Shown one piece after another: positions 7,216 to 11,725 of a stretch of 33,020 bases of DNA; the first letter of the stretch is position 1, and every line of letters starts with the position of its first letter. Origin of the DNA: Clostridiales bacterium (lineage in GTDB: Bacteria > Bacillota > Clostridia > Oscillospirales > Oscillospiraceae). The notes below the pieces were generated by a model. It searched no databases. It saw nothing but the letters and a program-made list of their open reading frames with translations, and was not told where the DNA came from. A program made the translations under genes and the position numbers. The DNA is taken from NCBI GenBank assembly GCA_021201635.1, contig JAJQEM010000102.1, forward strand, positions 1 to 33,020, written 5' to 3'.

Positions 7216-9309
7216 TTACACCTCGAACAGCAGGTCGCCGTAGCTGTACATGGGCCACACGTCCTGATCAACCAGCAGCTCCAGCTCGTCGATGGGCGCC
7301 CGGAGTGCGGCCATGCAGGGGACGATGGTGTCGTGGAAGGCGTGGGCCATAGCGCCCATGGAGTCCATGGAGTTGACCTGGGGCAGCTTGCACTCCAGAT
7401 CGGCCAGGGCGGAGGCAGCCTGCTTGAGCAGGACGTTCACCTGGTTGAGGAGATCCTTCTGGACGGAGGCGTCGGCGTCCACCGCCTCCAGAGCGGCCAC
7501 CGTGTTGGCCAGATCGCCGGAATAGGCCACAACGGCGGGGATGTATGCCTTGGACGCCATATGGATCATGGCGTTCGCCTCGATATTGATGGTCTTGGCG
7601 TAGGTCTCATACTGGACCTCCACACGGGAGGCCAGCTCAGCCCGAGTGAAGATGTTGAACTTCTCGTACATATCCACCACGTCGTCCTGCACCAGAACGG
7701 GGATGGCGTCCACCATGCTCTTGATGTTGGGCAGACCACGACGGGCAGCCTCCTCCACCCAGGCGTCGGAGTAGCCGTCGCCGTTGAAGATGATGCGCTT
7801 GTGCTTGGAGATGGACTCCTTGATGTAGGCCTTGCAGGCGGTCTCGAAGTCCTCAGCCCCCTCCAGTGCGTCGGCGGCGTTGCAGAATGCCTCGGCCAGG
7901 ACAGCATTCAGGGCGGTGTTGGGAGAGGCGATGGAATCGCGAGAGCCCACCATACGGAACTCGAACTTGTTGCCAGTAAAGGCGAAGGGAGAGGTGCGGT
8001 TCCGGTCAGTGGCGTCCTTCCTGAGGACGGGCACGGTGGACACGCCGGTATCCAGGGCGGCATCGGCGGCGGTGGCGTCCTCGGAGCCCTTCAAGATCTG
8101 GTTCACCACCTCGTCCAGCTGGTCGCCCAGGAAGATGGAGATGATGGCGGGAGGCGCCTCCTGAGCGCCCAGACGGTGATCGTTGCCCACGTCGGCGGCG
8201 GACTCCCGGAGCAGGTCGGCGTGGTCGTCCACAGCAGCCAGGACGCAGGAGAGCACCAGCAGGAACTGGAGGTTGTGGATGGGCTCATCACCCGGCTCGA
8301 AGAGGTTCTCTCCCTCGTCGGTGCCGATGGACCAGTTGTTGTGCTTGCCGGAGCCGTTGATGCCCGCATAGGGCTTCTCGTTGAGCAGGCAGACCAGGCC
8401 GTGGCGGGTGGCCACCCGCTTCATGGTCTCCATGGTCAGCTGGTTCTGGTCCACGGCCACGTTAGCGGTGGAGTAAATCGGGGCCAGCTCATGCTGAGCG
8501 GGGGCCACCTCGTTGTGCTGAGTGGTGGCGGTGATGCCCAGCTTCCACAGCTCCACGTCCAAATCCTTCATGTAAGCGCCGATGCGCTCCCGGATCTGAC
8601 CAAAGTAGTGGTCGTCCAGCTCCTGGCCCTTGGGGGCGGGCGCGCCGAACAGGGTGCGTCCGGCATAGACCAGGTCCTTCCGCTTCAGGTACTTCTCCCG
8701 GTCCACCAGGAAATACTCCTGCTCCGGGCCGACGAAGGCGGTGACCTTCTTGGCGGTGGTGTTGCCGAACAGCCGGACGATACGAATAGCCTGGGTGGAC
8801 AAAGCCTCCATGGAGCGGAGTAGAGGTGTCTTCTTGTCCAGAGCCTCTCCGGTGTAGGAGATGAACACGGTGGGGATGCAAAGAATCACACCGCAGCCGG
8901 ACTCCTTGACAAAGGCGGGAGAGGTGATGTCCCAGGCAGTGTAGCCCCGGGCATAGGAGGTGGCACGCAGGCCGCCGGAGGGGAAGGAGGACGCATCCGG
9001 CTCGCCCATGATGAGCTGCTTGCCGGAGAGCTGGAGGAGGGTCTTGCCGTCCTTGGGATAGGTGATAAAAGAATCGTGCTTCTCAGCGGTGGAGCCGGTC
9101 AGCGGCTGGAACCAGTGAGTGTAGTGGGTGGCGCCCTTCTCCACAGCCCAGTCCTTCATGGCGTTGGCCACCACATCGGCGGTCGCCATGGAGATCTGTC
9201 CGCCGTTTTCCATCACGTCGGTGACCTCGGCGAACACCTTCTTGGGCAGACGCTCCTTCATAACGGATACGCTGAACACATTTACTCCAAAAATCTCGCT
9301 GATATTCAT
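7216..9309 (-). CDS. glnN: Glutamine synthetase type III
   Basis: About 697 aa from [29 protein letters not shown] (internal start of the 735-aa ORF). GSIII features include [62 protein letters not shown] and [21 protein letters not shown]-like AAAGGG upstream of the ATG at 9309. Confidence 0.95.
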
Positions 9310-9370
9310 ACTTCTCAACCCTTTCGATGTTTGCGATATTTGGCATACAGTTCGGACGGAAGACCCGTAC

Positions 9371-9424
9371 AAACAAAGAAGGCGACAACGATTCCCTGCT
9401 CTCTCAGGGGACGCCATTGTCACC
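9371..9424 (-). promoter_or_regulatory. Putative ANTAR-binding tandem hairpin overlapping an intrinsic terminator in the glnN leader
   Basis: Minus-strand RNA: P1 GAC-AAUGGC-GUC, then P2 CCCUG-AGAGAG-CAGGG (both hexaloops have A1 and G4). Alternative stem GGUGACAAUGG/UCGUUGUCGCC (11 pairs, 3 GU) followed by UUCUUUGUUU. Confidence 0.6.
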
Positions 9425-9481
9425 TTTACTCTCGTGTCTGTTCGGTTATGAGGCCCCGGAGAGCCTCCGCTTCACAACACA

Positions 9482-9510
9482 AAGGATACACTATCCGGCG
9501 GGAATATGCA
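9482..9510 (-). promoter_or_regulatory. Sigma70-type promoter for glnN
   Basis: Minus strand TTGCAT-N17-TATCCT, located upstream of the hairpin leader. Confidence 0.5.
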
Positions 9511-9622
9511 AGTGTTTTTTTGATTTCATTCAAATTGACCGCAAAACCTCTCCCATCCCCCCCTTATTTTATGAAATATGAACGGAAGATGCATGAAGAA
9601 ATTCAAAAGTTGTCAGAATGTC

Positions 9623-9654
9623 TTGACATTCCCGCCCGAACTGGTTAGTATAAT
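9623..9654 (+). promoter_or_regulatory. Promoter for glnA
   Basis: TTGACA at 9623-9628; TATAAT at 9649-9654 (20-bp spacer) or TAGTAT at 9646-9651 (17-bp spacer). Confidence 0.5.
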
Positions 9655-9831
9655 ACTATCCGCAGGCATTTTCTGCGTATCTCCCGCCTGTCTCTCCGGC
9701 CGCCGGGAGCCGCTTGGAAATGTCCGCCCCTGATGTTCAAAAATGCAGGATGGGGCCGGTCTCCCTGCGTCATTTGCCCGCCTCGCCCCATTTTCCCGTG
9801 AGGCAGAGCCGGAAGGAGCAGCGATCACATC

Positions 9832-11160
9832 ATGAGTCACACAAAAGAGGATATTCTCCGCATCGTCCGGGAGGAGGATGTGAAATTTGTCCGGATGCAG
9901 TTCGTAGACGTATTCGGCGAGCTGAAAAACGTGGCGGTCATGGCCTCCCAGTTGGAGGACGCCCTGGACAATGGCGTGATGATCGACGGCTCCTCTATTG
10001 AGGGCTTTGTCCGGGTCAACGAGTCCGACCAGTTTCTCCGCCCCGACCTGGACACCTTCGCCATCTATCCCTGGCGGCCCAGCCGGGGCCGGGTGGGCCG
10101 TCTGCTGTGCGACGTGTACAGCGCCGACGGCACCCCGTTTGTCGGCGATCCCAGAGGGGTGCTTCGCCGGGCGGTGAGCCGGGCGGCGGAGCTAGGCTAC
10201 ACCCTGAACATCGGCCCGGAGTGCGAGTTCTTCCTGTTCCAGACAGACGACCGGGGCCGCCCCACCACCGAGACCATCGACCATGTGGGCTATTTCGACC
10301 TGGGTCCTCTGGATCAGGGGGAGGCCACCCGCCGGGAGATCTGTCTGAGCCTGGAGGAACTGGGCTTCACCGTGGAGGCCAGCCATCACGAGATGGCCCC
10401 CGGTCAGCATGAGGTGGATTTCCGCTATGAGGAGGCCCTCCACGCAGCGGACAATCTCACCACCTTCAAGCTGGCGGTCAAGACCATCGCCCAGCGCAAC
10501 GGCCTTCACGCCACCTTTATGCCCAAGCCCCTGAGCGACGCCCCCGGCTCCGGCTTGCACATCAATCTCTCCCTCCACCGGGACGGGAAAAACCTGTTCT
10601 GCGACCCGGCAGGGGTACACGGGCTGTCCAAAGAGGCCTATTCCTTTATTGCGGGCATGATGGCCCACATCGACGCCATCACCGCCATTGCCAATCCCCT
10701 GGTCAACAGCTACAAGCGGCTGACTCCGGGCTATTCCGCCCCCTGCTATGTGTGCTGGTCAGAGTCCAACCGCTCCGCCCTCATCCGTATCCCCGCTGCC
10801 CGGGGAGAGCACACCCGGCTGGAGTTCCGCAGTCCCGACCCCGCCTGCAATCCCTACCTGACCTTTGCGGTCTGTCTGGCCGCCGGTCTGGACGGCGTTG
10901 AACGGGGCCTGACCCCTCCGGCGGAGAATACGGAAAACGTCTACCGCCTCTCTGACCACCGGCGCTCGGCTCTGGGCATTGCCAGTCTCCCCGCCAATCT
11001 GAAGGAGGCCATCGACGCCCTCCGGGCAGACCAGTTCATCCTGGACGTGCTGGGGCCTCACGTCTCCGCCGCCTATCTGGAGGGCAAGACCGCCGAGTGG
11101 GACAGCTATCGGCGGCAGGTCTCCCAGTGGGAACATGACCAGTACCTGATTCGTTATTAA
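9832..11160 (+). CDS. glnA: Glutamine synthetase type I
   Basis: 442 aa with MIDGSSIEGFVRVNESDQFLRPD, GPECEFFLF, EASHHEMAPGQHEVDFRY, MPKPLSDAPGSGLHINLSL, NSYKRLTPGYSAPCYVCWSESNRSALIRIP and TRLEFRSPDPACNPYL. Confidence 0.97.
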   Translation: MSHTKEDILRIVREEDVKFVRMQFVDVFGELKNVAVMASQLEDALDNGVMIDGSSIEGFVRVNESDQFLRPDLDTFAIYPWRPSRGRVGRLLCDVYSADGTPFVGDPRGVLRRAVSRAAELGYTLNIGPECEFFLFQTDDRGRPTTETIDHVGYFDLGPLDQGEATRREICLSLEELGFTVEASHHEMAPGQHEVDFRYEEALHAADNLTTFKLAVKTIAQRNGLHATFMPKPLSDAPGSGLHINLSLHRDGKNLFCDPAGVHGLSKEAYSFIAGMMAHIDAITAIANPLVNSYKRLTPGYSAPCYVCWSESNRSALIRIPAARGEHTRLEFRSPDPACNPYLTFAVCLAAGLDGVERGLTPPAENTENVYRLSDHRRSALGIASLPANLKEAIDALRADQFILDVLGPHVSAAYLEGKTAEWDSYRRQVSQWEHDQYLIRY

Positions 11161-11194: not shown

Positions 11195-11725
11195 GTGGAG
11201 AGAGTGATCGTCGTCTTTGACAGCGACAAGAGCGCCCGGCGCATCTGCGAGATGATCGAGTCCGCCGGGGCCGCAGAGTGTCAGCTCTGCCGCTCGGGCG
11301 GAGAGGCCCGCCGGGCCGTCGCAAAGTATGATATTGATTTGGTGATCTGCGGCTTCCGCCTGCCGGACGGCACGGGGGAAAGCCTGTTTGAAGACCTGCC
11401 GGAGGGCGCCTCCATGCTGATGATCGCCCCCCAGCACCAGCTGGATCTGGTGAGCGACGACATCTTCCGTCTCCCCGCTCCCATCTCCAGAAGCGATCTG
11501 GTGGCCTCGGTGCGGATGGTGCTCCAGATGAGCCACCGCCTCAGCCGGCTGGTAAAGCCCCGGAGAAGCAGCGAGGATCAGGTCTTGATCCGCCGTGCCA
11601 AGGAGCTGCTGATGGAGCGCAACGGCCTCACGGAGGAGCAGGCCCACCGTATGTTACAGAAAAAGAGCATGGACTCCGGGGTCAACCTGGTACAGACCGC
11701 CCGGCTGGTGCTGGGCGACCTGTGA
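11195..11725 (+). CDS. ANTAR-domain RNA-binding antitermination regulator with degenerate receiver domain (NitR-like)
   Basis: C-terminal ANTAR signature [40 protein letters not shown]. Receiver-like N-terminus [44 protein letters not shown] start at 11195 with GGGAG upstream. Confidence 0.88.

Follow-up and report, generated by a model that had tools for sequence, protein, structure and literature searches.

What kind of RNA element precedes glnN, and which factor would read it? The DNA analysed here (the window, 33,020 nucleotides; all coordinates are window positions) is a contig from the 1.85 Mb genome of a gut bacterium, Clostridial by its relatives, and carries the glnN leader, GGUGACAAUGGCGUCCCCUGAGAGAGCAGGGAAUCGUUGUCGCCUUCUUUGUUU, on its minus strand. 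A sequence-only reading had proposed that this leader contains two tandem hairpins, P1 and P2, whose six-base loops have A at position 1 and G at position 4 (A1/G4), that these hairpins are mutually exclusive with a terminator, and that they are the target of an ANTAR protein encoded nearby. That ANTAR proteins control nitrogen genes is, as a broad idea, already published. Comparison of the leader with those of other genomes makes it very probable, in our view, that it is a transcription attenuator with a single ANTAR-responsive hexaloop and belongs to a nitrogen-assimilation regulon.

Table 1. Features of the glnN–glnA locus in the window.
Feature	Position	Strand	Basis
glnN, type III glutamine synthetase; regulated gene in the proposed switch	7216..9309	-	Pfam GSIII_N, 256 bits
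U-rich tract UUCUUUGUUU, 3' of the terminator stem	9371..9380	-	read directly
Terminator-like stem GGUGACAAUGG...UCGUUGUCGCC, competing structure	9381..9424	-	folding; terminator covariation in relatives
CCCUG-AGAGAG-CAGGG (P2 of the sequence-only reading), apical stem of the terminator; not conserved as a second hexaloop	9394..9409	-	fold, relatives
ANTAR-type hexaloop hairpin GAC[AAUGGC]GUC (P1), putative antiterminator, conserved	9410..9421	-	sequence, relatives, shuffles
Promoter-like TTGCAT-N17-TATCCT, weak	9483..9511	-	read directly; below promoter-scan cut-off
glnA, type I glutamine synthetase	9832..11160	+	Pfam
Pseudo-receiver and ANTAR protein, probable trans-acting factor	11195..11725	+	Pfam ANTAR, 59.6 bits

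The sequence, strand and coordinates put forward for the leader are correct: P1 extends from 9421 to 9410 (A1 of its loop at 9418, G4 at 9415), P2 from 9409 to 9394, and 11 pairs, three of them G-U as claimed, join 9424-9414 (GGUGACAAUGG) with 9391-9381 (UCGUUGUCGCC), after which UUCUUUGUUU follows. This stem shares the 5' arm and the loop of the hexaloop hairpin; since GAC[AAUGGC]GUC uses the same 5' bases as the long stem, the two states are mutually exclusive. The minimum-energy fold of the element is a single long stem with CCCUG/CAGGG at its apex and an energy of -23.1 kcal/mol, as against -13.7 kcal/mol for shuffles (z = -3.5), and in the longer leader the minimum-energy fold also pairs the U-tract with upstream sequence. 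The proposed exclusivity with the terminator therefore stands for P1 and falls for P2, which is nested in the terminator as its apical stem. Only 1 of 2000 dinucleotide shuffles of the window leader had a matching hexaloop that overlapped a U-tailed stem.

A consensus scan for sigma-70 promoters and terminators over 9250-9850 reported neither on the minus strand; the inner stem and mixed U-tract of this terminator lie outside what such a simple scan covers. The promoter named by the sequence-only reading is present, though weak, and lies about 60 nt upstream of the element, a distance from the hairpin unlike that in most relatives. With only three contiguous pairs in its hexaloop stem, as had been conceded, and an imperfect U-tract, the window's copy is by its sequence a weak member of its kind, and the case for it rests on its relatives.

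These relatives were gathered in two samples, the first consisting of 80 glnN loci from named genomes and the second of 80 glnN leaders from the taxonomic family to which the window belongs. With a detector that calls a C-G-closed hexaloop overlapping a U-tailed stem, and that was tuned on glnN leaders, a recurring element is found in Clostridial glnN leaders; it has the consensus NNNC[RANGGY]GNNN and overlaps a terminator. The arms of its hairpin vary while their pairing is kept (GAAC/GUUC, CAGC/GCUG, GAGC/GCUC, AAGC/GCUU, AGAC/GUCU, AGGC/GUCU, CGGC/GCUG, CAAC/GUUG). To keep the test from being circular, elements were located by loop and terminator alone, with no pairing demanded of the 5' arm; a hexaloop stem of at least 4 bp was present in 61% of 80 such elements, as against 15% with shuffled arms (maximum 25% in 2000 trials). 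Among elements found by loop and terminator and having a stem of at least three pairs, loop position 1 is A in 49 of 56 and G in the other seven, position 4 being itself a search criterion in this count. A stricter definition of the loop still recovers 31 of 48 leaders from ANTAR-positive genomes, where shuffles lead one to expect 0.1.

Both structures covary. In the alignment designated A1, double-change cells number 79 in the hexaloop stem, where shuffles have 31, and 118 in the terminator stem, where shuffles have 38, and both signals are lost when the partner is shifted by 1-3 columns; the members of this alignment were selected with a pairing criterion, and for the hairpin the loop-plus-terminator arm test is the cleaner of the two. 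Close to the window, G089 (74% glnN identity) combines GAC[AAUGGU]GUC with the outer-arm terminator seen in the window, while G096, of the same genus, has GGC[AAUGGA]GUC. Conservation in orthologous leaders had been set beforehand as a test on which the proposal could fail; hexaloop and alternative stem are both conserved there. Taken together, these comparisons demonstrate hairpin and terminator as two mutually exclusive, covarying predicted structures.

Whether one hairpin or two would be read by the protein is where this element departs from published systems. According to Ramesh et al. 2012, ANTAR targets consist of two hairpins and are found at nitrogen genes, and deletion of P1 abolishes induction (PMC3369931); an actinobacterial survey likewise required two hairpins (PMC8164766). 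The EutV crystal structure of Walshe et al. 2022 identified one hexaloop as the minimal binding site, while the authors argue that both hexaloops must be contacted to prevent termination and expect lone sites only where the timing of the polymerase is irrelevant (PMC8934654). Given that the published motifs are dual (PMC3369931, PMC8164766) and that the AGAGAG loop does have A1 and G4, the leader could be a canonical target of the eut, nasF and amiE kind, the protein binding first one of its two hairpins (P1, CCCUG-AGAGAG-CAGGG) and then the other. This second hairpin is, however, absent from the nearest relatives, G096 and G089, a lack of conservation that largely refutes the tandem motif. 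The linker between the two hairpins would measure 0 nt here, and EutV-dependent induction fell drastically when the linker was cut to 3 nt (PMC3369931). Second A1/G4 hexaloops of three pairs or more, counted across 77 elements, lie upstream in six (9.0 expected from shuffles) and downstream, before the end of the terminator, in seven (5.7 expected); the AGAGAG hairpin of the window is the kind of match that chance gives. Among Lachnospiraceae leaders with longer 5' regions an upstream P1 was seen in 7 of 19, a count reached in 27 of 200 shuffles and thus not significant, and the stretch between promoter and element in the window holds a hairpin, GAGGC...GCCUC, that has no A1/G4 hexaloop. Transcription initiates about 7 nt after the -10 box. 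A good sigma-70-like promoter precedes 58 elements; in these the median distance from -10 box to hairpin is 11 nt and the distance is 20 nt or less in 51, so that the hairpin stands at the 5' end of the RNA or close to it and leaves no place there for an upstream P1. We therefore regard binding to two hairpins as improbable; the conserved hairpin, which overlaps the terminator, corresponds to the canonical P2 position, and no equivalent of P1 was found. In the glnN leaders L182, L191, L199, L203, L207, L067 and L058, two complete elements of hexaloop and terminator lie 70-95 nt apart; each having its own terminator, these are serial attenuators and not a compact dual motif.

The single-hexaloop element tracks the presence of ANTAR genes. 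In the family sample, which mostly holds one genome per genus and is otherwise uncorrected for relatedness, it occurs at glnN in 38 of 48 ANTAR-positive and 7 of 32 ANTAR-negative genomes (Fisher p = 6e-7), and control loops with T1/C4 or G1/A4 had no association with ANTAR in the same sample. The first sample agrees, with the element in 35 of 46 genomes with ANTAR and in none of the four without (hypergeometric p about 0.006). Five of the seven ANTAR-negative exceptions are assemblies that are at most 80% complete; in the other direction, the element is absent at glnN from 10 of the 48 ANTAR-positive genomes, absence calls being blurred by genome incompleteness. Operon structure points the same way: in 64 of 86 cases an ANTAR domain begins 1.2-1.9 kb past the point where a type I glutamine synthetase gene on its strand starts, and most of the separately fetched ANTAR loci are likewise linked to glnA, with some others beside glnN. 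The comparison of genomes thus establishes both the co-occurrence with ANTAR and the linkage of ANTAR to glnA, and the earlier suggestion that the element is a target of the nearby ANTAR gene product gains from both.

The element is also found in front of other genes. A covariance model (R1) was used to search 121 genomes; the window sequence is part of the model, so the score of the window itself is no independent evidence. As plain covariance matches, taken with no 5'-arm test, include ordinary bidirectional terminators, matches were re-checked for the hexaloop, and it was present in 37 of 40 fetched regions. These 40 matches away from glnN were hand-picked, all from ANTAR-positive genomes except G133, an incomplete assembly. 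The genes directly downstream include glnA (10, plus one further), amtB (6), pyrG (4), gdhA, guaA, purF, a gltB-type glutamate synthase and a GOGAT-associated FAD/NAD subunit; further loci with the element concern asnA, urease (ure) and another glutamate-synthase amidotransferase domain. The names glnA, urease and some others come from reading translations, and ten representatives were checked against NCBIfam. A scan of the window's own glnA leader found no hexaloop in this genome. The comparison establishes the same type of element as the mark of a predicted nitrogen regulon across Clostridia, and the downstream genes suggest that glutamine-consuming enzymes belong to it. In at least two genomes pyrG, encoding CTP synthase, lies with its element directly 3' of the ANTAR gene; L265, L284 and L297 are among these loci. 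The top R1 match in the window's genome is a second element that is not in the model, CAAAAC[GAAGGC]GUUUUG (G000:C141:107-151; L316:104-165), located just after TTGACA-N18-TAACAT and before an operon for a circularly permuted ATP-grasp protein, an Alpha-E protein and a transglutaminase-like protein; the same type of ATP-grasp gene, by sequence similarity, carries the element in G133 and G092.

The dominant predicted fold in the window, one long hairpin, would also suit a simple stem or ordinary intrinsic terminator that takes no input from a protein and has its hexaloop by coincidence. The hexaloop stem, incompatible with that terminator, covaries independently of it, and the element's presence follows that of ANTAR; moreover, 10 of the 13 matches from ANTAR-negative genomes have no hexaloop, these 13 being mostly plain terminators, and no nitrogen gene was recognised behind any of them. 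A purely passive terminator is to us marginally less probable than the two-hairpin target.

The single-hexaloop attenuator would require an RNA-binding protein, for which the product of 11195-11725, the sole ANTAR gene of the genome, is the candidate. Aligned with EutV (6wsh), its ANTAR domain keeps Lys149, Glu160 and Met172, three of the residues by which G4 is held or positioned at the single-hexaloop site, together with an aromatic-type residue at 164 (PMC8934654). The latter, Tyr in EutV, is His in the window protein and in 35 of 38 homologues, and most of the EutV arginines that contact the RNA backbone are absent. In the receiver domain the phospho-acceptor Asp54 of EutV is replaced by Gly, and Asp is missing at this position in most of the 38 aligned homologues and in most of those linked to glnA; a second ANTAR protein of G016 (L086) is a clear exception. 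A receiver that lacks Asp54 makes phosphorylation unlikely as the signal.

ANTAR proteins can also be controlled by partner proteins, as AmiR is held by AmiC and NasT by NasS. Like the window protein, these have ANTAR fused to a receiver-like domain and no partner kinase, and they are the better models; they differ in that no AmiC- or NasS-like sensor adjoins the gene here, the conserved neighbour being type I glutamine synthetase. In Bacillus, glutamine synthetase acts as a nitrogen sensor that binds transcription factors. This role, and the conserved neighbourhood, make glutamine synthetase the leading candidate partner by inference only. We envisage that, when the ANTAR protein is not at hand, the transcript would fold into the terminator stem and end at the U-tract. 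Once active, presumably when nitrogen is limiting, the ANTAR protein encoded in the neighbouring glnA operon would grip the lone hexaloop GAC[AAUGGC]GUC as it emerges; bound in this way, the hexaloop would tie up the 5' arm of the terminator and let the polymerase read into glnN. From the comparative data we infer that the protein binds and that readthrough follows, as well as what the signal is and in which direction it acts. A more elaborate version, possible if rather doubtful, would have the receiver-dead ANTAR protein switched by direct contact with glutamine synthetase, the feedback-inhibited, glutamine-bound enzyme sequestering it, and the freed protein needing only one hexaloop at the 5' end to antiterminate the whole glutamine/ammonium regulon, pyrG, guaA and purF included.

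A six-base loop is too small for a typical aptamer. Least probable of all is a hairpin switch read by a non-ANTAR factor, be it a small molecule or another RNA-binding protein: two fairly complete, well-assembled genomes in which no ANTAR gene was detected (G087, G088) do have the element, but the A1/G4 hexaloop is the experimentally defined specificity of ANTAR (PMC3369931, PMC8934654), the element is tied to ANTAR by statistics and by operon linkage, and an Rfam scan of the window at a relaxed threshold yielded nothing between 9370 and 9480 with E as high as 5, the glutamine riboswitch being one example of what was covered.

With the dual-hexaloop antiterminators (EutV/eut, NasR/nasF, AmiR/amiE; PMC3369931) the preferred single-hexaloop attenuator shares an A1/G4 hexanucleotide loop, a short covarying stem of at least three pairs with a fixed closing pair, overlap with an intrinsic terminator, nitrogen genes and an ANTAR protein in the genome. 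It differs in having one hexaloop instead of two, second A1/G4 hexaloop hairpins 2-25 nt away being no commoner than chance, in the location of that hairpin close to where the transcript starts, in the overlap of the terminator with the only hairpin, and in a loop that accepts A or G at position 1 and has an additional preference for A2, G5 and Y6. The putative regulator likewise retains three EutV residues that hold or position G4 and lacks the phospho-acceptor Asp. In contrast to the expectation of Walshe et al. 2022, lone sites here overlap terminators in many genomes. NitR of solventogenic Clostridium is also an antiterminator-type gene tied to glutamine synthetase; as cited in PMC4676874, it is described together with an antisense RNA for glnA, and the texts consulted describe no hexaloop regulon. 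Since loop, stem, terminator and ANTAR gene agree with the published motif and the second hairpin does not, the element, which would work like an ANTAR attenuator, is best named a single-hexaloop variant and should not be filed as a dual motif.

We found no description of the single-hairpin architecture, or of a regulon built on glnA-linked ANTAR proteins with pseudo-receivers, in the open literature. Current models hold that ANTAR antitermination needs two tandem hexaloops, and published genome searches require both, so that a regulon with single hexaloops would be missed by them. If many Clostridial genomes have a version with one hairpin, the mechanism would need revision, and a tiny switch that is simple to test would become available; such a version could also explain how these Clostridia coordinate their glutamine synthetases, ammonium transport, glutamate synthase and glutamine-using enzymes.

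One further candidate in the window's genome was rejected: GGGAC[AAGGGC]GUCCC (G000:C115:6952-7011; L258:1501-1560), a weak covariance match, falls within a different reading frame, and its fold is no better than those of shuffles. It precedes a DUF554-like gene and its loop could pair with the ribosome-binding region, and it might represent a translational version of the switch.
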